A DNA stretch of 64,000 bases from Halogeometricum sp. S1BR25-6. Lineage in GTDB: Archaea; Halobacteriota; Halobacteria; Halobacteriales; Haloferacaceae. Shown piece by piece: positions 5,009 through 56,207 of this stretch. Both the position numbers and the translations under genes were made by a program. The stretch is taken from NCBI RefSeq assembly GCF_031624495.1, contig NZ_JAMQOP010000001.1, positions 1,674,001 through 1,738,000 of the forward strand. The letters are read 5' to 3'. Every line of letters begins with the position of its first letter. Position 1 is the stretch's first letter. The notes below the pieces were generated by a model. It was not told where the DNA came from. It did not search any database and saw only the letters and a program-made list of their open reading frames with translations.

Positions 5009-5163
5009 CGTCGTCCCGTCCGAGGGACTCCGGAAGGATAACAGATGCGGACGCCGCCGTGCGTCCGGCGAGGCCGCCCGCCGGCGCAGATTCGACGCGG
5101 ATGCTCGAACCGTGCCGTCCGTAGTCGGGGGTTTTTCAACGTGCGACGTCCTACCGAGGGGTG

Positions 5164-5490
5164 ATGGCCGCACGACCACCACCGCAGGGCGGGGACGAAC
5201 CGGACACGCTCGAGTTCGGCATCGCCGCACTCGCCGAAGACCTCTCGAAGGCGGACGTGTCGTACCCGGTGACCGAGGAGGAACTCGTCCGCCGACTCAA
5301 CGACGTCGCCGTCCCCTACAACGCCGCCGGCGGGACGGTTCGGCTGAGCGAGGCGCTCGAGTCGGTGCCGCAGTCCCGGTTCGCCAGCAAGGCTGAACTG
5401 CTCGACCAACTCCACCCCGTCTTCGAGGAGTACCGGCGCTCGTCGTCGAACAACATCCTCGGCCAACTGCGCGCCATGCTGCCCTTCTAA
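5164..5490 (+). CDS. Small conserved haloarchaeal protein (DUF5789-like)
   Basis: This is a 108-residue protein. SYPVTEEELVRRLNDVAVPYNAAG, then GTVRLSEALESV and FASKAELLDQL, repeat a pattern of short helices with conserved Tyr-Pro and Leu. It resembles small haloarchaeal families such as DUF5789 (and DUF2795), whose function is unknown. The ATG at 5164 is preferred over the GTG just before it. It is divergent from the ribbon-helix-helix gene and convergent with aglJ. The family assignment is from memory and tentative. Confidence 0.68.
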   Translation: MAARPPPQGGDEPDTLEFGIAALAEDLSKADVSYPVTEEELVRRLNDVAVPYNAAGGTVRLSEALESVPQSRFASKAELLDQLHPVFEEYRRSSSNNILGQLRAMLPF

Positions 5491-5569
5491 GCCGTCCTCC
5501 CCGCCGCCGCGTCGTCCCTCCGAGAGCGGCCGGACCGGCCAATCCGACCCCTCCGACCGGTCCGACCGC

Positions 5570-6481
5570 TCAGTCGGACTCCTCGTCTATCTTCCTGAGC
5601 GTGTCTCTGTGCAACGTCAGGATGAGGTCCGAGAGGACGCCGAACATGAGCAACTGGACGCCGACGATGATGGCGAACGCGGCGACGACGGCGAGCACCT
5701 CGTGGGAGACGCGGACGGTCACCCACTCGACGGCGACGTACGCGGCGATGAGGAATCCGAAGATGGTCGAGACGCCGCCGACGCTCCCGAAGTAGAACAG
5801 GGGGTTGTTCGTCTTCGCCCGCCGGTAGAGTTCGAGGAAGATGATTCCCCCATCGCGAATCGGTCTGAGGTTCGTGTCCGACCCGTTGGGCCGCGGCAGG
5901 TAAGTGACCGGAACCACCGTCGTCCGGATGTTCCGCTTGACGCACTCGACGGCCATCTCCGTCTCGACGCCGAAGCCGTCGGCGGTGAGCGTCATCCGAC
6001 CGAACGAGGACCGCGTGAACGCGCGGTAGCCCGAGAGGATGTCCCGGAAGTCGTGCCCGTGGATAGTGGCGAACCCGCCGTTGACGACGCGGTTTCCGAG
6101 CCGGTTGAACCGCGTCATCGCGCCGTTCTTCATATCGGCGAAGCGGTCGCCGATGACGTGTTCGTACCCCTCGTCCAACGGCGCGAGCATGTTCTCGGCG
6201 TCCTCGGCGCGGTACGTCGCGTCGCCGTCGAGCATCAGGACGTACTCGGCGTCGACGTGGTACTCCATCGCCTCTCTGATGGCCTGTCCCTTGCCCGACC
6301 CCGACTGCATGACGACGCGCGCGCCGTGTTCTTGGGCAATGTCGGGGGTGCCGTCCTCGGAACCCCCGTCGATGACGAGGATGTTCTCGAAGCCCTCCCT
6401 GTGGAAGTCGTTGACGACGTCGCCGATGGTCTCGGCCTCGTTGAAGGTGGGGACGAGGACGCAGACTTCGGCGTACTCCAT
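5570..6481 (-). CDS. aglJ: AglJ-type dolichyl-phosphate glycosyltransferase
   Basis: This is a family-2 glycosyltransferase that places the first sugar of the S-layer N-glycan on dolichyl phosphate at the membrane (known for Haloferax AglJ). The catalytic domain shows VCVLVPTFNEAETIGDVV at the N-terminus, VIDGGSEDGT, and the metal-binding DGDATY near residue 92. Two or three membrane helices close the protein (FYFGSVGGVSTIFGFLIAAYVAVEW and VLAVVAAFAIIVGVQLLMF, roughly 215-290). At 303 residues it has the family length. The ATG at 6481 is chosen since family members start MEY. It is the first gene of the glycosylation locus, and the AT-rich segment begins directly upstream. Confidence 0.9.
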   Translation of the reverse strand: MEYAEVCVLVPTFNEAETIGDVVNDFHREGFENILVIDGGSEDGTPDIAQEHGARVVMQSGSGKGQAIREAMEYHVDAEYVLMLDGDATYRAEDAENMLAPLDEGYEHVIGDRFADMKNGAMTRFNRLGNRVVNGGFATIHGHDFRDILSGYRAFTRSSFGRMTLTADGFGVETEMAVECVKRNIRTTVVPVTYLPRPNGSDTNLRPIRDGGIIFLELYRRAKTNNPLFYFGSVGGVSTIFGFLIAAYVAVEWVTVRVSHEVLAVVAAFAIIVGVQLLMFGVLSDLILTLHRDTLRKIDEESD

Positions 6482-6820
6482 TGGACAGAAGAGGGAAAGT
6501 GTATTGGTAAAATGCTTCGCATCTTGTTCGCTCGCAGTGTGTTGCATCTATAGGCGGGGCCAACTGTGAGTCGCTGATCCGGTCCACTAATAAGGCTTCG
6601 ATAAGCTACCGAGCGTGAAATTTGGAGTAGAGAATGTCTGGGAAGATTCCCTACCTCTTCGTCGAATTCAGACAACGATCTATTCCTGATAGATCCTACG
6701 TGTATATCGACATCTCACCCGTAGTACCCTTGATTAGCCCATTCTGTATGACCAAATCAGCCGCTATCAGTGTTAAATAGTTGTTTCATTGGATTGAAGA
6801 CCAGCCGTAAAGTGCGTGCC
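6482..6820. other. AT-rich intergenic stretch without a gene
   Basis: These 339 bases separate aglJ from the flippase. No ORF with coding character, tRNA or convincing hairpin is seen. The base composition drops sharply in G+C compared with the left side. The aglJ promoter is probably at its left end, where the minus strand reads ATTTTACCAA upstream of the ATG at 6481. Confidence 0.6.
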
Positions 6821-8245
6821 CTATCGCAATGGGGCAACGTTATCGCGGACCACTCGCCGGAATCGCGGCGAGAAGGTGACGAGTGAGATAAAGAAGGTTA
6901 TCGCCCCGAGACCAACCAAGAGGACGGTCACGACGTACGAGGGAAGGGGTAGCGTCGTTGACTCAACAGATAGGAGTATTGTCCAAATGACGCCACCCAT
7001 CACCGCCGCCGCGCCGACCTGCCTCAAGAGTTCGTGGTAGGGAATTGAGAACGAGACGATGTCATCGATATACCGATAGGTGACCCCAAGCGCGAACGCC
7101 GACGCAATGAGGCTCCCCACTGCTGCACCGAGCCACCCGAGTTGCCAAACTAGGAGAACGTTTAATCCGATATTCGCGCTGATGAACGCAGCGTTTGAGC
7201 GGAATGCGAGTTCGGGACGATTAACGGCTGTCAGCGCGGTGAGCAACTGCTTGAAGTAGCCATTGACGAGCAATGCCGCAACTAAGAGTATGAGTGCAGA
7301 ATGTCCGGTCGGAAACTCCGGACCGTAGAACAGGAGAATCCGGTCTCCGAGAAGAAGAGTACCGACAAGTCCCGGAATGAGGAAGAGTCCGGTGAACGCA
7401 AGTGTGTCAGAGATCAGGCCACCGATCTGGTCAAAGTCACCTTTTGAAGACATTTCACTCATTTCCGGGAAAAAACTTGATGCGACGGCATTTCCGAATG
7501 CAAGGAACGAAGCAACGTTCCACGCCGCGTTGTAGATACCAACCAATGCCGATGGGACAAAAAAACCGAGTACAAAAATGTCCATCCAAGTAAATGAGCG
7601 TCCTCTTAGAGAGTCAAGCCATGAAAACTGCGCAAACGACAACAGTGATTTGAAATGTTCTCGCGCGGGCGGAACATACGACAGATGGATCTTCATCCCC
7701 CCGAGAATAGCCGAGAAAACGATGCCTGCGACGGCGCCAATGAGCATCCCTGTGAGTCCAAAGCCAGCCGCCAGGAGGCCGATTTGAACGGCGCTCTGAC
7801 CGAACCGCTGGAGCGGTTCTAACGCGCCGGCAAAATGAACCTTATGTTGGCCTTCAAGAACAGTCCGGACGAACGACTGGAGTACTTTTGCCCCGAGGAG
7901 TACGAGAATGAGCGCGGTAGCATCAATACCGATGTAACTCGTGAGTTGAGGTGCGACAGCGATCACAATGAGAGCGGTGGCAGCAAAGAATATCGACATA
8001 CTTACAGCTCCTGCGACGAGGAACGGGGCGCTATCGCCTCTCTCGCTTAGACGTTTTTTGAGCGCGGCGGTCATCCCGAGTTCGCCGCCGAACTCCAGCC
8101 AGGCGACGACGACAATTATCAGGGAGTAGGTTCCGAAGACTTCTGGTCCGAGGAGTTGAGTGAAGTAGATGGTCGCAGCGAACCCCAGAAGCGATGCTAT
8201 GAGGTTGGAAGCATAGTGGAAGAAGGACGTTTGTCCCAACCTCAT
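6821..8245 (-). CDS. Polysaccharide/oligosaccharide flippase of the MOP superfamily
   Basis: This is a 474-residue integral membrane protein with about 12-14 hydrophobic helices. It starts MRLGQTSFFHYASNLIASLL and contains the usual Wzx-like opening with TQLLGPEVFGTYSLI. Members of this family move lipid-linked sugars across the membrane; Haloferax AglR has this role for dolichyl-phosphate-mannose. Its place between aglJ and the other glycosylation genes supports flipping the dolichyl-linked glycan to the outside. Codon use is less GC-biased than in the neighbours (many ATA, TTA and AGA codons), which suggests transfer. The symbol aglR is not given, because orthology cannot be judged. Confidence 0.85.
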   Translation of the reverse strand: MRLGQTSFFHYASNLIASLLGFAATIYFTQLLGPEVFGTYSLIIVVVAWLEFGGELGMTAALKKRLSERGDSAPFLVAGAVSMSIFFAATALIVIAVAPQLTSYIGIDATALILVLLGAKVLQSFVRTVLEGQHKVHFAGALEPLQRFGQSAVQIGLLAAGFGLTGMLIGAVAGIVFSAILGGMKIHLSYVPPAREHFKSLLSFAQFSWLDSLRGRSFTWMDIFVLGFFVPSALVGIYNAAWNVASFLAFGNAVASSFFPEMSEMSSKGDFDQIGGLISDTLAFTGLFLIPGLVGTLLLGDRILLFYGPEFPTGHSALILLVAALLVNGYFKQLLTALTAVNRPELAFRSNAAFISANIGLNVLLVWQLGWLGAAVGSLIASAFALGVTYRYIDDIVSFSIPYHELLRQVGAAAVMGGVIWTILLSVESTTLPLPSYVVTVLLVGLGAITFFISLVTFSPRFRRVVRDNVAPLR

Positions 8246-49756: not shown

Positions 49757-50602
49757 TTACACGTAGCGTTCGAGCGCTTCGAATGCCCGTCTCGCGGCCT
49801 CGTCCGGTCGGTCCGGGTAGGTGTACAGTTCTAGGGTGACGAAGCCGTCGTAGCCGATATCGTCGAGGGCGTCGAACGCCTCGGCGAAGTCCAAGTCGCC
49901 GTCGCCGGGGACGAGGTGGTAGTGCTTCCCGCGGACGCCGCCGGCGATGTCTTCGAGGTGGACGCCGGTGATGTGTCCCGCCGCCTTCTCTATCGTGTCG
50001 CGCAGTTGTTCGCCGTAAACGGCCGAGTGACCGAGGTCGAGATTGATGCCGAACCCCTCTCGACCCACGTCGTCGACGAGTTCGAGCGCCTCGTCCGTGC
50101 ACTCGACGAGGAGTTCGGGTTCGAACTCGATGCCGACGTCGACGCCGCGCGGTTCGGCGTAGTCGAGAATCTCGTCCAGCGACGAGAGCAGGTGTTCGTA
50201 CGCCGCCTCGGGTAGCGTCCCCGGCAGAGGGGAACCCGAGGCGAGACAGACCGCCGGCGCGCCCGTGGCCTCGGCGAGGTCGACGGCCCGCTTCGTGTAC
50301 TCGACGCGCCACGCGCGCAGGTCCGGGTCGGGGTTGATGACGCTCGGTTCGAAGAAGGCCGTCTCGGGCGCGTCCCCGTAATACCCCATCGCGGTGTTCG
50401 CGTTGACGTTCGAGACGGCGATGCCCGTCTCGTCGAGAGCGTCGGCGAGTGCGGCCTCGTCGTCGGAATCGAACTCGGGGAAGTACGCGTGCGGCGTATC
50501 GCCGAGCAGTTCGACTCCCGCGTAACCGTGGTCGGCGATGCGACGCACGGCCTCGGGGAGCGTGTAGTTCGTGTACGCGTTGGTGGAGAATGCCAGTTTC
50601 AT
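49757..50602 (-). CDS. Sugar-phosphate isomerase/epimerase-like TIM barrel (EboE-like candidate, copy 1)
   Basis: This is a 281-residue xylose-isomerase/endonuclease-IV-type barrel starting MKLAFSTNAYTNYTLPEAVRRIADHGYAGVE. Expected metal ligands are visible: Glu in GIEFEPELLVE, Asp/His in INLDLGHSAVYG, His in TGVHLEDIAGG, Glu in FVTLELYTYP. An additional GKHYHLVPGDGDLDF loop is typical of sugar isomerases. It is a paralog of the protein at 51557. It is the last gene of a four-gene minus-strand operon with UbiA, TIM-barrel and TatD genes. Its 3' end meets the ligase gene head-on. The substrate is unknown, perhaps a cyclitol or sugar made by the inositol-phosphate synthase. Confidence 0.83.
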   Translation of the reverse strand: MKLAFSTNAYTNYTLPEAVRRIADHGYAGVELLGDTPHAYFPEFDSDDEAALADALDETGIAVSNVNANTAMGYYGDAPETAFFEPSVINPDPDLRAWRVEYTKRAVDLAEATGAPAVCLASGSPLPGTLPEAAYEHLLSSLDEILDYAEPRGVDVGIEFEPELLVECTDEALELVDDVGREGFGINLDLGHSAVYGEQLRDTIEKAAGHITGVHLEDIAGGVRGKHYHLVPGDGDLDFAEAFDALDDIGYDGFVTLELYTYPDRPDEAARRAFEALERYV

Positions 50603-50618
50603 AGTGTGTACCGTAAGT

Positions 50619-51551
50619 TCAGCTCATGTCGAAGCGTTCGGAGAGCACGTGCGTCGGAACCGCGAACGCCGCGGCGGCGACGGCGAACCACGGCCCGGCG
50701 ACGACGGCGACGGCGCCGTCGAGGAGGACGATGCCGAGGACGCAGGTGCCGACGGCCGGTCCGACCTTCGAGGGGACGGGGTCGGCCATCGCCGGACCGA
50801 GCGCGTGCCAGTCCCACGCGAGGAAACACGCGGCGAGGACGGTGGCGGCGAGTCCGAGGGTCGGCGTTCCGAGGACAGTGGCGACGACGGGAACGACCAT
50901 CGCCGCGAACGTCGCGCCCGCGGCGGCGACGGCGACTTCGGACCCCTCGCCGCCGCCCGTCTCCGACTCCGCCATCCGGGTGAACGCCGCCACGTAGACG
51001 ACGACCCCGATCGGAAACAACAGCGCGACGGCGTCGAAGGCGGCGGCGCCGGCGACGGCGAGGCCGAGGCAGACGTTCAGTCCGCGGGCGGCGCCCATAG
51101 CGAGGAAGCCGGCCGGACCGCCCTTCAGCAGGCCGTCGTAGAGGACGACGGTGAGGGCGAGGGCCGCCGCGACCAGTCCGGGGAGCGCGCCCCCGGTCGC
51201 CGCGGCGACGCCGACGCCGGCGAGGAGGAGCGCCCCGCCGAAGACGAGCGCGCTCCCTCGACCGATTCGACCGGAGGGAATCGGCCGCTCGGGGCGCTCT
51301 CGTTCGTCCTCGGCGACGTCGGCCGCGTCGTTCAGCGTCGTCCCCGCGGCGTAGACGCACGCGGAGGCGACGCAGAGACCGGCGATTGTCGGGAGCGAGG
51401 CCGGCGCTCCGAGGGCGACGGCGAGGGCGGCGCCGGCGAGCACGTCGGGCGGCGCGGTGAACAGGTTCGGCAGTCGGACGAGTTCGGCGTAGTCCGTCGC
51501 CACTCGTCGAACCCGCTCGAACCCGAACGCGTCGCCGACGCCCGCGGCCAT
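50619..51551 (-). CDS. UbiA-family prenyltransferase (EboC-like)
   Basis: This is a 310-residue membrane enzyme with about eight helices. The first Asp-rich motif is TTLNDAADVAEDERERPERPIPSGRI (near 75), which binds Mg-prenyl diphosphate. The second acidic motif is less clear (VLYDGLLKGGPAG near 150), as in atypical UbiA proteins. It may attach a prenyl or geranylgeranyl chain to a cyclitol or other acceptor. Another reading is a scaffold role, as proposed for EboC in bacteria. The ATG at 51551 is preferred to the GTG at 51566. It lies between two TIM-barrel genes with gaps of 5 and 16 bases. Confidence 0.85.
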   Translation of the reverse strand: MAAGVGDAFGFERVRRVATDYAELVRLPNLFTAPPDVLAGAALAVALGAPASLPTIAGLCVASACVYAAGTTLNDAADVAEDERERPERPIPSGRIGRGSALVFGGALLLAGVGVAAATGGALPGLVAAALALTVVLYDGLLKGGPAGFLAMGAARGLNVCLGLAVAGAAAFDAVALLFPIGVVVYVAAFTRMAESETGGGEGSEVAVAAAGATFAAMVVPVVATVLGTPTLGLAATVLAACFLAWDWHALGPAMADPVPSKVGPAVGTCVLGIVLLDGAVAVVAGPWFAVAAAAFAVPTHVLSERFDMS

Positions 51552-51556
51552 CGACC

Positions 51557-52393
51557 TCAGGCCCACCCGCGTTCGCGGAGGTAGTCCATGGCGCCCTGTG
51601 CCGTCTCGGCGGCCGTCTCCTGGTACGGGTAGAGTTCGACCGTGACGTAGCCGTCGTAGCCGGAGTCCTCGACCGCCTGCAGGAAGCCATCGATGTCCAT
51701 CGCGCCGTCGCCGAGTTGGGTGTGCTCGTGCGAGCGGTCCTCGGGGATGTCCTCGAGGTGATAGTGGCGCGTGTAGGGGGCGAGCGTCTCGACCAGTTCC
51801 GCGGGGTCCTCGCCCATGCAGAACAGGTGACCGGCGTCGAAATTGCAGGTGATGCGCTCGGAGTCGACGCGGTCCATCAGGTCGAGGTATTCGTCAGAAG
51901 TCTCGATAAGCAGGTCGGGTTCGGGTTCGACCATCACGTCGACGCCCTTCCGTTCCGCTCGCTCGGCGAGTTCGTCCAGACCCTCGACGAACGTGTCCAT
52001 CGCCCACTCGCGGGACTTCTCTTCGGGGACGGGTCCGCCGGGTTCGATGGAGATGCGGTCGCAGCCGAGTTCCGCGGCGGCGTCGATGGTGTCGAGCGTG
52101 TAGTCGACGCGGCGGCGGCGGTAGTCCTCGTCGGGTTCGATAAACGAGGGGTGGTGGAAGTCCTCGATGGCCGTCAGCATGAACGCGTTGCAGTTGCTGA
52201 TGGCGATGTCGTTCGTGTCGAGAGCCGACTCCACCTCGTCGTACTCCTCGCCCGTCGCCGTCGGCGGGTAGAGGAACGGTTCGTCGAACAGCAGTTCGAT
52301 GCCGTCGTACCCGGCGTCGGCGACGGCCTCGATGGCGCCGACCGTCGAGTACTCCCGGAAGGCGTTCATCGAGAAACCGAACTGGAGCGACAT
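51557..52393 (-). CDS. Sugar-phosphate isomerase/epimerase-like TIM barrel (EboE-like candidate, copy 2)
   Basis: This is a 278-residue barrel homologous to the product at 49757, starting MSLQFGFSMNAFREYSTVGAIEAVADAGYDGIE. Metal ligands appear in VMVEPEPDLLIE (Glu), ITCNFDAGHLFCMG (Asp, His), HYHLEDIPEDRSHEH (His, Glu) and YVTVELYPYQ (Glu). The TatD-like gene ends exactly where this gene starts (stop at 52394-52396, ATG at 52393), so the two are probably translated together. The function is unknown. A member of the cluster in each copy suggests two related steps or a heterodimer. Confidence 0.84.
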   Translation of the reverse strand: MSLQFGFSMNAFREYSTVGAIEAVADAGYDGIELLFDEPFLYPPTATGEEYDEVESALDTNDIAISNCNAFMLTAIEDFHHPSFIEPDEDYRRRRVDYTLDTIDAAAELGCDRISIEPGGPVPEEKSREWAMDTFVEGLDELAERAERKGVDVMVEPEPDLLIETSDEYLDLMDRVDSERITCNFDAGHLFCMGEDPAELVETLAPYTRHYHLEDIPEDRSHEHTQLGDGAMDIDGFLQAVEDSGYDGYVTVELYPYQETAAETAQGAMDYLRERGWA

Positions 52394-53263
52394 CTACTCG
52401 CCCCCCGACCCGGTCTCGGCCGCTTCGACGGCCGACGCGGCCGTCGACGACTCGGCGGCTACCTCCCGCGCGTAGTCGAAACTCTCGGACTGAGCGAAGA
52501 ACTCCAAGGGGTTCTCGAAGAGGAGTTTCCGGACCTCGCTTCGGTCCCAGCCGGCGTCTATCATCGCGTCGCGGGCCTTCGGAACCGCGAGGGGGTCCGA
52601 GTCGTCCCAGTCGGCCGAGGAGTTGATGATGCGCCTGTCGGTGCCGTACTCCTCCAGCAGGGGCATCACCTCCTCGATGGATATCTTGCCGGGGTAGAGC
52701 GTGAAGCCGAGCCAGCAGTCGGTGGCGGCGGTCGTCTCCATCGTGGCGGGTTCGTTGTGGTCGATGATGATGCGCTCCTGCGTGACGTCCATCTCCTCGA
52801 TGATGTCGACGGTGCGAACCGCGCCCTTCGGTTTCTCCTCGTGGGGGAGGTGGATGATGACGGGCGCCTCGTGCTCCTCGGCGACGCGGAGTTGTTCGCG
52901 GAACGCCCACTCCTCCTCGTCGGTCTGGAGGTTGAACCCGATCTCGCCGACGCCGACCACCCGGTCGCGTTCGAGGTACTCGGGCAGTCGGTCGATGACC
53001 GCCTCAGACATCTCGCGGTCGACCGCCTCCTTCGGGTTGATGGAGACGGTGATGTAGTGGTCCATCCCGGCGATGCGCTCGGCGCGTTCGGTCTCGAAGT
53101 CGTGGATGTGCTCGAAGTAATCGAAAAACGATTCGGGGTAGAGTTTGTCCGACCCCGACCAGAACGAGGGTTCGATAACGCACTCGATGCCCGACCGCCG
53201 CATCTCGCGGTAGTCGTCCGTCGTGCGCGACGTCATGTGAGCGTGAGAGTCGATGAGACGCAT
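52394..53263 (-). CDS. TatD-like metal-dependent hydrolase (EboB-like)
   Basis: This is a 289-residue amidohydrolase-fold protein starting MRLIDSHAHMTSRTTDDYREMRRSG, with the HxH pair of the family. The later ligands lie in VGVGEIGFNLQTDEEEW (Glu), APVIIHLPHEEKP (His), RIIIDHNEPATM (His) and INSSADWDDSDPLA (Asp). TatD enzymes often cut DNA, but this branch resembles the EboB proteins of metabolite clusters. A Ser/Ala/Glu-rich tail follows from about 265. The ATG at 53263 is chosen over the GTG three codons upstream. It is the first gene of the minus arm; its TATA box (GATAACAAAGC) is near 53298. Confidence 0.85.
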   Translation of the reverse strand: MRLIDSHAHMTSRTTDDYREMRRSGIECVIEPSFWSGSDKLYPESFFDYFEHIHDFETERAERIAGMDHYITVSINPKEAVDREMSEAVIDRLPEYLERDRVVGVGEIGFNLQTDEEEWAFREQLRVAEEHEAPVIIHLPHEEKPKGAVRTVDIIEEMDVTQERIIIDHNEPATMETTAATDCWLGFTLYPGKISIEEVMPLLEEYGTDRRIINSSADWDDSDPLAVPKARDAMIDAGWDRSEVRKLLFENPLEFFAQSESFDYAREVAAESSTAASAVEAAETGSGGE

Positions 53264-53389
53264 GTACGACACTGAGGACCATCCCCGCTTTGTTATCGTC
53301 GCCCTACAGGTTCCGGCGCGAGGGAAACGGCTCGATAGCCCCGAGTAGCGGCCAGTTAACGGGTCGTTGAATCGGTCGGCGAGAAGCGA

Positions 53390-53410
53390 TTTACCCGCCG
53401 GTCGGGTAAA
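53390..53410. promoter_or_regulatory. Perfect palindrome between the two arms of the EBO-like cluster
   Basis: tttacccg, five bases, cgggtaaa: eight matching bases per arm. It ends about eight bases before the TATA-like cataactaacc of the + strand arm (ATG 53452), over the BRE or activator zone. It lies about 95 bases from the minus-arm promoter. It is a likely operator for the whole cluster, with the same 8-5-8 layout as the palindrome before glpK. Confidence 0.6.
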
Positions 53411-53451
53411 GCGGACGCATAACTAACCCTGTTCCGTTCTGTGAGGGAGTT

Positions 53452-54768
53452 ATGACGCGAACGCGAACGGGCGTCTGGTTCGTCGGCGCCCGCGGCAACG
53501 TCGCCGCCACGGCTATCTCCGGGGCGCGCGGAATCGCCCGCGGGACGACCGACGACACCGGCATGGTCACGGCCCGCGAACCCTGCACCCGGCTGGATTT
53601 GCCGCCGGTCGACGGGTTCGTCTTCTCCGGCCACGACATCGCCGAACGCCCCCTTCTCCACGCCGCGACCGACCTCGCCGACTCGGGCATCGTCGACCGG
53701 GCGACGCTCGAAGCCGTCGCCGACGACCTGCGCGAGATAGACGAGCGCATCGAGACGGGCACCGCGCGGAACTGCGGCAGCGCCGTCTCGCTCGCCGACG
53801 GCGACACACTCGACAGCGACCACGGCGTGAGCGGAGTAGTCGAACAGATTCGCGCGGACTACGCGGCGTTCGCAGAGGAACACGACGTGGACCGACTGGT
53901 CGTCGTCAACCTCGCCTCCTCGGAACCGCCGATGAGAGACCCCGAGCGGTACGACACGCTGGACGCCTTCGAGGCGGCCCTCGAAGCGGACGACGCGGAC
54001 CTCCCGGCGAGTTCGCTGTACGCCTACGCGGCCCTCGTCGACGGCCACCCGTACGTCAACTTCACACCCTCGACGGGGAGCGAACTCGGCGGCCTGCGCG
54101 AGTTGGCCGACCGCGAGAACGTCCCGCACGTCGGTCGCGACGCCAAGACCGGCGAGACCCTGCTGAAGACGGCGCTCGGGCCGATGTTCGCCGGGCGCAA
54201 CCTCAACGTCATGTCGTGGGATGGCTTCAACATCCTCGGCAACGGCGACGGCAAGGTGCTCGACGACGACGACAACAAGGCCGGCAAGCTACAGAGCAAG
54301 GGCGGCGTGCTCTCGGAAGTGCTCGGGTCGGACGCCCACAACCGCGTCCGCATCGACTACACCCCCTCGCTCGGCGACTGGAAGACGGCGTGGGACCACG
54401 TCCACTTCGAGGGGTTCATGAACACGAAGATGACCCTCCAGTTCACCTGGCAGGGCGCGGACTCCGCCCTCGCCGCCCCTCTCGTGTTGGACCTCGTCCG
54501 CCTCGTCTCCTACGCCGACGAGCACGGGGAAGGCGGAACGCAGACGCACCTCGCGTCGTTCTTCAAAGAGCCGATGGACGTGGACGAACACGACCTCTCC
54601 CGGCAGTTCGCCATGCTTGAATCCTACGTCGAAGCGCACCGTGACGACGCCGCGGCGGAGTCGACCGACCCGGTCCGGACTGACGGCGGCGGGGACGAAG
54701 CCGCCGGTACCGGCGCCGGCACGAACGCAAATTCGGACGCAGACACAGTCAGGGAGGCGGAACGGTGA
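53452..54768 (+). CDS. myo-Inositol-1-phosphate synthase family protein
   Basis: The family converts glucose 6-phosphate to myo-inositol (1D-inositol 3-) phosphate with NAD. The 438 residues open with the Rossmann segment TGVWFVGARGNVAATAISGARGI. They carry VVNLASSEPP and YVNFTPSTGSELGGLREL, then the catalytic part MSWDGFNILGNGDGKVLDDD, KAGKLQSKGGVLSEVLG and HVHFEGFMNTKMTLQFTWQG. The tail from 405 is Ala/Gly/Asp-rich and disordered. The ATG at 53452 has GAGGGAG just upstream. Its last codons overlap the next gene's GTG by four bases. It heads the + arm of the cluster and could supply a cyclitol phosphate for it. Confidence 0.88.
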   Translation: MTRTRTGVWFVGARGNVAATAISGARGIARGTTDDTGMVTAREPCTRLDLPPVDGFVFSGHDIAERPLLHAATDLADSGIVDRATLEAVADDLREIDERIETGTARNCGSAVSLADGDTLDSDHGVSGVVEQIRADYAAFAEEHDVDRLVVVNLASSEPPMRDPERYDTLDAFEAALEADDADLPASSLYAYAALVDGHPYVNFTPSTGSELGGLRELADRENVPHVGRDAKTGETLLKTALGPMFAGRNLNVMSWDGFNILGNGDGKVLDDDDNKAGKLQSKGGVLSEVLGSDAHNRVRIDYTPSLGDWKTAWDHVHFEGFMNTKMTLQFTWQGADSALAAPLVLDLVRLVSYADEHGEGGTQTHLASFFKEPMDVDEHDLSRQFAMLESYVEAHRDDAAAESTDPVRTDGGGDEAAGTGAGTNANSDADTVREAER

Positions 54769-56207
54769 GCGACTCCGAACCGGACCCCGAACCCGAACCG
54801 TCGGCAGCGAGTCGGGTCGTCGTCCTCAACGTGGTGGGCCTCCAACCCGACCACGTCGACCCCGAGTCGACGCCCAACCTCGCCGGCCTGTTCGGGGACG
54901 GCGCGACGACGGGCGCGGTGCCGCCGTTCCCGGCGGTGACCATCCCCTCGCAGACGACGCTCTCGACGGGGGTCTCGCCCTCGACGCACGGCGACGTCTC
55001 GAACGCGGAGTACGACCGCGAGACCGACACCGTCGAACTGTGGGGTCGAAACAGCGGCGACCGCAACCGCGTCTGGGAGGCCGCGCGCGACGCCGACGTG
55101 ACGACGGGTGCGCTGTTCTTCCAGCACCTCTACGGCACCTCGGCGGACGTCGCGGTGACGCCGAAACCCATCGAGGACGAGAACAACAACCTCATCGAGA
55201 TGAACTGCTGGACGAACCCCGACGGCTTCTACGAGGAACTCCGCGAGGAGTACGGCCACTTCCCCCTGCACAACTACTGGGGGCCGGCCGCCAACGCGCA
55301 GGGCAGCGAGTGGATCCTCTCGGCGGCCCGCGAGGCGACGGAACGCTACGACCCGGAGATGCTCTGGACGTACGTCCCGCATCTCGACTACACGGGACAG
55401 AGCCACGGGCCGAACTCCGAGGCGTTCGACGAAGCGCTCTCGGAGGTCGACGAACTCGTCGGCGACTACCTCGACTTTCTCGAAGAGACCGACCAGTGGG
55501 ACGAGACGGCCGTCGTCGTCGTCAGCGAGTACGGCTTCCACGAGGTGTCGAGGCCCGTCTTCCCGAACCGCGCGCTCCGCGAGGCGGGTCTGATGAAGAC
55601 GAGAGACGCCGAGGGCGACGAAGAGGGACAGGTGCCGGACCTCTCCGCCTCCGAGGCGTTCGCCGTCGCCGACCACCAGGTCGCGCACGTCTACTGCGAC
55701 GCCGAGGCCGTCGAGACGGCCCGCGAGGCGCTCGAATCGCTCGACGGCATCGAGCGCATCCTCGACGGCGACGACCAGGCCGCCTACGACATCGATAGCC
55801 AGAGCGCGGGCGACCTCGTCCTCGTCGCCGACCCGGACGCGTGGTTCGCCTACTACTGGTGGGACGACGGCGAGGAGGCGGCGATGCCCCCCTACGCCGA
55901 TAGCGTCGACATCCACGAGAAACCCGGCTACGACCCCTGCGAACTGTTCCTCGGCGAGGACGGGTTCGTCTCGACGGACCCCTCGAAGGTGAAGGGGTCG
56001 CACGGCCGCGTCGACCCCGAGACGACGCCGTTCTTCGGCATTGGCGGCCCCGCCGCCCCGTCGCTGTCCCTCGACGGCGACATCGACATGCGGCAGGTCG
56101 CTCCGACGGTGCTCGACCTCCTCGGCGTCCACGAGGCCGTCGACATGGAGTTCGAGGGCGCGTCCATCCTCGCCCCGTCGAACGAGTTGGGGCCCGCCGA
56201 CGACTGA
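54765..56207 (+). CDS. Alkaline-phosphatase-superfamily protein (EboF-like), altered metal site
   Basis: This is a 480-residue nucleotide-pyrophosphatase-like protein. The nucleophile Thr is kept in PPFPAVTIPSQTTLSTG (near 70), and HLDYTGQSHGPNS and KGSHGRVD keep further metal ligands. However, the first strand reads VVLNVVGLQPDHV with Val-Gly where the family has Asp-Gly, and the usual Ser-Asp-His-Gly is VVVVSEYGFHE. So several zinc ligands are replaced and catalysis may differ. GTG at 54765 overlaps the inositol-phosphate-synthase stop (GTGA), indicating coupled translation. An acidic N-terminal tail has no signal peptide, so it is cytoplasmic. Confidence 0.83.
   Translation: MSDSEPDPEPEPSAASRVVVLNVVGLQPDHVDPESTPNLAGLFGDGATTGAVPPFPAVTIPSQTTLSTGVSPSTHGDVSNAEYDRETDTVELWGRNSGDRNRVWEAARDADVTTGALFFQHLYGTSADVAVTPKPIEDENNNLIEMNCWTNPDGFYEELREEYGHFPLHNYWGPAANAQGSEWILSAAREATERYDPEMLWTYVPHLDYTGQSHGPNSEAFDEALSEVDELVGDYLDFLEETDQWDETAVVVVSEYGFHEVSRPVFPNRALREAGLMKTRDAEGDEEGQVPDLSASEAFAVADHQVAHVYCDAEAVETAREALESLDGIERILDGDDQAAYDIDSQSAGDLVLVADPDAWFAYYWWDDGEEAAMPPYADSVDIHEKPGYDPCELFLGEDGFVSTDPSKVKGSHGRVDPETTPFFGIGGPAAPSLSLDGDIDMRQVAPTVLDLLGVHEAVDMEFEGASILAPSNELGPADD

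Follow-up and report, generated by a model that had tools for sequence, protein, structure and literature searches.

The DNA analysed here, referred to as the window, is a 64,000-nucleotide stretch of the haloarchaeon Halogeometricum sp. S1BR25-6 (contig NZ_JAMQOP010000001.1, positions 1,674,001 to 1,738,000). A sequence-only reading had singled out six tightly packed, divergently arranged genes at 49757-56207 and likened them to the bacterial EBO operon, with the inositol-phosphate synthase INO1 as the cyclase. Family scans and the reading frames confirmed the genes and their arrangement (Table 1), and the comparisons described below identify the block as a variant, found in haloarchaea, of the INO1-type EBO cluster. 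The ebo operon is defined by six genes, eboA-F, and variants without eboA or eboD exist (PMC5133447).

Table 1. Features of the six-gene block, in window coordinates.
Feature	Position	Strand	Support
TIM1, PF01261 sugar-phosphate isomerase/epimerase-like TIM barrel	49757..50602	-	Pfam AP_endonuc_2 1.4e-45
EboC-like UbiA prenyltransferase	50619..51551	-	NCBIfam EboC 171.8 bits; Pfam UbiA 3.8e-17
TIM2, second PF01261 TIM barrel paralogue	51557..52393	-	Pfam 3e-50
EboB, TatD-like metal-dependent hydrolase	52394..53263	-	PF01026 1.8e-16
Divergent intergenic region	53264..53451		Presumed promoters of both operons (putative function)
INO1, inositol-3-phosphate synthase	53452..54768	+	PF07994 1e-44
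EboF, PF01663 alkaline-phosphatase-like fold	54765..56207	+	PF01663 2.7e-53

Transcription of the minus-strand genes runs in the order EboB, TIM2, UbiA, TIM1, with intergenic gaps of 0 to ~16 bp; on the plus strand, INO1 overlaps the PF01663 gene by 4 bp, and ~190 bp separate the two operons. The UbiA frame spans 50619-51566, with an ATG at ~51551 and a GTG at 51566 as the alternative start. A longer overlapping frame (50599-51690) was rejected as the UbiA gene because it gave no family matches. The EboB start is most likely the ATG at 53263, where the homologues also start. Two blocks of the intergenic region, GCATAACTAACC and GCTTTGTTA, were conserved in three same-genus relatives. A perfect palindrome at 53390-53410, TTTACCCG-CCGGT-CGGGTAAA, also lies between the operons and has no second match in the window (0.09 expected with 3 mismatches); it was rejected as an operator since it was not conserved in the same-genus relatives. 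Within the genus, Ka/Ks values (0.08-0.37 for intact genes) indicated purifying selection on all six genes, and the GC content of the block was unremarkable.

In a first sample of 116 haloarchaeal genomes, INO1 was detected in 10. The other block genes adjoined it in nine of the 10, with gene order unchanged apart from one genome in which TIM1 had moved; eight of the nine INO1 genomes other than S1BR25-6 held the same six genes, including the one with the moved TIM1, and strong UbiA matches coincided with the INO1 genomes. One genome (G020) carried a split block, with INO1 ~240 kb from EboB, TIM2 and UbiA. Among 391 haloarchaeal genomes, INO1 was present in 55, EboB in 56 and both in 53, or about one in seven (Fisher p 3e-59, uncorrected for kinship); short INO1 fragments (G316, G359) were counted as matches, and two very weak matches (G165, G172) were excluded. 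The pair lay within 6 kb in 48 of the 53 genomes, far apart on one contig in two, and on different contigs in three, which may reflect assembly breaks. Two genomes had INO1 but not EboB. The six genes thus recurred as a unit in several families and locations, as anticipated from the window, and were both chromosomal and plasmid-borne, including on named plasmids of Halobaculum, Halocatena and Natronococcus. In plasmid tblastn searches with EboB, matches of 38-45% identity were EBO loci, whereas housekeeping TatD proteins gave ~24%. The corresponding search with UbiA returned one partial match, probably owing to low-complexity filtering, and annotated neighbourhoods were used in its place.

Generic annotations and the neighbouring DNA ligase gene, lig, could suggest that unrelated housekeeping genes (a TatD nuclease and AP-endonuclease-like TIM barrels) had come together near lig by chance. 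The unit is, however, kept across several families and in different locations, and its TatD protein groups with EboB and not with housekeeping TatD. The co-occurrence data refute this explanation, and we assign it virtually no probability.

The block had also been proposed to be an insertion beside lig. It lies between lig and downstream genes in four same-genus genomes, ~17 kb around it is common to the same-genus relatives, and a cluster without INO1 occupies the same stretch near lig in Haloarcula pellucida. A one-off event in S1BR25-6 was thus not supported. In other genomes examined the location differs and may be a plasmid; the block has therefore moved at some time. Its patchy presence and shifting locations point to transfer or repeated loss, and in trees the haloarchaeal copies of EboB, EboC and INO1 each had a single origin.

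Kinship with EBO was carried by three of the six proteins. The TatD protein is assigned as EboB on sequence grounds. It shared 37-43% full-length identity with bacterial EboB, and 48 columns were invariant across 12 bacterial EboB sequences (Actinomycetota, Bacteroidota, Cyanobacteriota, Deinococcota, Gemmatimonadota and Pseudomonadota) and four haloarchaeal ones, while the EboB profile gave only 5 and 48 bits for the housekeeping TatD paralogues of the same genome. It retained an HxH, E, H, H, D pattern, which we take to be the metal sites expected of a TatD fold. The nearest relative of solved structure was a TatD-like protein of Archaeoglobus fulgidus, the uncharacterised AF_1765 (3guw).

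The UbiA protein scored 171.8 bits against EboC (cut-off 250), 163.3 against the SCO3242 family (cut-off 260) and 59 against the next family, and in the tree it joined the EboC/SCO3242 proteins, with 22 other haloarchaeal UbiA sequences lying elsewhere (support 83). By profile and tree it appears close to EboC/SCO3242 and of the EBO type, yet is not an equivalog by the NCBI cut-off.

The PF01663 protein shared 33-41% identity with bacterial EboF and carried the motifs PHLDY, SEYG, ADHQxxH, IHxKPGxDPxEL and HG, which are confined to EboF. In the tree it lay apart from three closer-scoring PF01663 paralogues of its own genome; two long, fragmentary paralogues were badly placed, and for this reason its assignment as EboF was based on the motifs. 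The structural model (pLDDT 89.7) best matched the fold of Xac NPP phosphodiesterase. Xac NPP residues D54, H214, D257 and H258 correspond to V24, Q212, E255 and Y256 of EboF, while T59 and D208 are kept. Presumably these six positions are the two-zinc ligands of the phosphodiesterase; four of them are replaced across the EboF family, whereas the paralogues of the same genome retain SDHG. This family-wide loss makes phosphatase activity of EboF doubtful.

Neither TIM barrel proved to be EboE, the identity that the analogy with the bacterial operon would have implied. TIM2 was the best match to the EboE profile in the genome, at only ~30 bits, and was rejected as EboE since it fell outside the EboE clade. 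Best matches to the profile ranged from 18.9 to 30.6 bits against a cut-off of 250, and TIM1 likewise fell outside the clade. TIM1 formed a clade of its own, which included the TIM barrel of a bacterial locus, L110 (support 98). The absence of EboA and EboD, already remarked upon from the window, held in profile searches of 10 cluster-bearing haloarchaeal genomes: no match to EboA (NF035938) exceeded the cut-off, and EboD (NF004852) gave only weak matches at other loci (<=28.5 bits, cut-off 333).

Compared with EBO clusters of cyanobacteria, Bacteroidota, Pseudomonas and eustigmatophyte plastids, the block thus shares EboB and EboF by sequence, an EboC-like UbiA protein, tight clustering and a single cyclase, but lacks EboA, EboD and EboE and has instead INO1, two PF01261 TIM barrels, a divergent layout and an archaeal host. 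Its gene content is that of a variant keeping B, C and F rather than that of a canonical EBO cluster, and its homology to EBO is almost certain.

The sequence-only reading had regarded the use of INO1 as a haloarchaeal substitution. This was not the case, as Streptomyces, other actinobacteria and a Gemmatimonadota plasmid were found to carry INO1 in EBO clusters. Streptomyces plasmids (L054, L055) held INO1, an SCO3242-family UbiA protein, a TIM barrel, EboA, TatD, eboE and a PF01663 protein in a single run, and on the Gemmatirosa plasmid INO1 lay beside EboB, C, E and F. Consistent with this arrangement, SCO3242 (a transferase) and SCO3243 (inositol phosphate synthase) of S. coelicolor have consecutive tags (PMC3610822). 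Among 82 EBO loci, compiled from a genome scan and two plasmids and rich in actinobacteria, INO1 was present in 42, EboD in 11 and both in none within the stretch seen, which is suggestive of mutual exclusion. INO1 is thus supported as the cyclase of the cluster and probably replaces EboD functionally; in actinobacteria, EBO clusters usually have this inositol form. Like the haloarchaeal block, the actinobacterial clusters (Streptomyces; SCO3242/SCO3243) combine INO1, UbiA, a PF01261 TIM barrel, EboB and EboF without EboD, but they also have EboA and EboE, and their extra TIM barrel falls in a different clade. Neither INO1-type nor archaeal EBO clusters were found described in the EBO literature searched, with subscription papers mostly outside its scope.

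The TIM1-related locus L110, from a metagenome-assembled genome of a groundwater deltaproteobacterium, carried a minimal set of INO1, one TIM barrel, EboB and EboC in a single row. Its EboB (support 87), like its TIM barrel (98), grouped with the haloarchaeal proteins, although the L110 sequences are long-branched; it differs in having a single TIM barrel and no EboF on the contig piece seen. Upstream of its INO1 lies a cytochrome c gene, itself preceded by a gene for a weakly sugar-dehydrogenase-like protein (region 5039-6882). Two Paenibacillus loci (L123, L132) combined EboB, EboC and EboF, and neither a cyclase nor EboA or EboE was seen there; no INO1 was found in the genome of the former. 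The INO1 loci of Bacteroidota and alphaproteobacteria (L056, L058, L059, L062) were rejected as EBO and represent other INO1 loci. On the Hymenobacter (L056) and Roseomonas (L058) plasmids INO1 occurred with a Gfo/Idh/MocA oxidoreductase, a YcaO-like protein, a sugar-phosphate isomerase and a PIG-L deacetylase, and at L058 also with a glycosyltransferase; the TIM barrels of both grouped with the actinobacterial EBO TIM barrel. The INO1 of an unannotated Methylobacterium plasmid (L057), with a TIM barrel nearby, grouped with those of L056 and L058.

The INO1 of the block matched the A. fulgidus enzyme (1u1i, AF_1794) at E 1e-83. The equivalents of its residues D225, N255, D261, K274, K278, K306, D332 and K367, to which we ascribe catalytic roles, were identical in 30 of 30 sequences. 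Since every compared catalytic position is kept, INO1 likely synthesizes inositol 3-phosphate. The A. fulgidus enzyme, although of the same family, is known as a stand-alone enzyme. In the tree, it grouped with the haloarchaeal INO1s and those of EBO clusters, apart from two further types of INO1. Halomarina and, as a second copy, Halorussus aquaticus have INO1 genes that lie outside the cluster (L074, L187); they branch inside the haloarchaeal cluster INO1s, and glycosyltransferase genes adjoin them in Halomarina.

Such stand-alone genes bear on the alternative that INO1 supplies inositol for ordinary phospholipid head groups or for use as a solute, its EBO-like neighbours being incidental. 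The Haloferax volcanii INO1 (HVO_B0213) is indeed listed under polar-lipid head-group biosynthesis (PMC8305020), and two genomes have INO1 only, as does the Halomarina locus with its glycosyltransferases and no cluster. INO1 is absent, however, from 336 of the 391 haloarchaeal genomes, yet 53 of the 55 genomes that have it also have EboB, and head-group synthesis would require neither EboB, EboC and EboF nor two TIM barrels. We therefore consider this alternative quite unlikely.

A route to a membrane-held cyclitol lipid is proposed instead. The gene content, the co-occurrence, the kinship and the retention or loss of catalytic residues are shown by the data, while all reactions after that of INO1, the nature of the product and a carrier or membrane-lipid role for it are inferred. 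INO1 would convert glucose 6-phosphate to inositol 3-phosphate, and one or both IolI/epimerase-like TIM barrels could isomerize or epimerize the cyclitol or its keto form. EboB, as a TatD-fold hydrolase, may catalyse a cut or rearrangement. The membrane protein EboC would then transfer an isoprenoid to the cyclitol-derived acceptor or a partner carrying it, the probable donor being geranylgeranyl, which is common in archaea, and EboF would most likely bind or modify a phosphorylated intermediate rather than act as an ordinary two-zinc phosphatase. The NDxxDxxxD motif of EboC is retained, and its nearest solved relative is the archaeal digeranylgeranylglyceryl phosphate synthase, which prenylates an alcohol on a phosphorylated backbone; this relationship favours O-prenylation of a cyclitol phosphate. 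Co-occurrence of INO1 and EboB even where the two lie far apart also speaks for the proposed route, as does the in vitro prenylating activity of flavobacterial EboC-type enzymes (PMC9235831).

Several observations weigh against the proposed route. The support of 83 that sets EboC apart comes from a quick tree, and EboC has no recognizable second aspartate motif, with T and E in its place. INO1 was absent, truncated or fragmentary in five of the 56 EboB-bearing haloarchaeal genomes, and the step it catalyses is therefore not an absolute requirement. Haloarcula pellucida (L106, G299) kept the five other genes with no INO1 found in the genome; two further genomes (G325, G369) had EboB and no INO1 match; and one (G316) had only a short INO1 fragment. 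In a same-genus genome (G359; locus L191, about 5930-6300), a ~1 kb deletion left the first ~74 residues and a C-terminal piece; the five other cluster genes are whole, no other INO1 was found, and an assembly error could explain the deletion. For INO1-less clusters, the simplest biological interpretation is that inositol may be imported. Finally, the sole EboC-type enzymes assayed, those of flavobacteria, prenylated aromatic quinolines in vitro, by farnesylation of 8-hydroxyquinoline-2-carboxylate, rather than cyclitol acceptors (PMC9235831).

This farnesylation would suit an EboC that prenylates an indole or quinoline acceptor, with the inositol branch as a helper or head group and the cluster engaged in metabolite traffic as for scytonemin. 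In E. coli, the EDB cluster gave indole products (PMC9655573), and ebo genes have been linked to export of the scytonemin monomer (PMC6282210). Against this stands the lack of any aromatic-pathway gene alongside the cluster at this locus, and an aromatic acceptor is considered unlikely. To our knowledge, no scytonemin-type product has been found in haloarchaea.

The weak resemblance of the TIM barrels to IolI, IolO, IolE and epimerases could also indicate an iol-like island for inositol or sugar catabolism. Their scores were far below the curated cut-offs, INO1 builds inositol and does not degrade it, the block has no inositol dehydrogenase, kinase or aldolase, and a membrane prenyltransferase would be out of place in catabolism, making such an island very improbable.

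For the cyclitol-lipid route from INO1 through the TIM barrels, EboB, EboC and EboF as a whole, our judgement is evenly divided. A prenylated cyclitol as the product is a reasonable possibility, at somewhat below even chances, and a carrier role is doubtful. Tentatively, and as a somewhat unlikely generalization, the EBO clusters of Bacteria and Archaea could all produce prenylated cyclitol lipids of a single class for the membrane. A heptose-derived ring would be supplied by EboD or an inositol ring by INO1, an unrelated cyclase, and EboF would have become an atypical, metal-poor phosphodiesterase-fold protein in the service of this lipid.

With these results, EBO-type genes are recognized in a second domain of life, and the membrane head-group role assigned to haloarchaeal INO1 is called into question. 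They also suggest that a phosphatase role should not be assumed for EboF. EBO is widespread, and the INO1 form narrows the question of its product, as the predicted cyclitol is inositol, which can be purchased in labelled form. Haloarchaea moreover offer genetically tractable hosts for this question; Hfx. volcanii has both INO1 (HVO_B0213) and a match to the EboE profile in its genome and may therefore carry the cluster.

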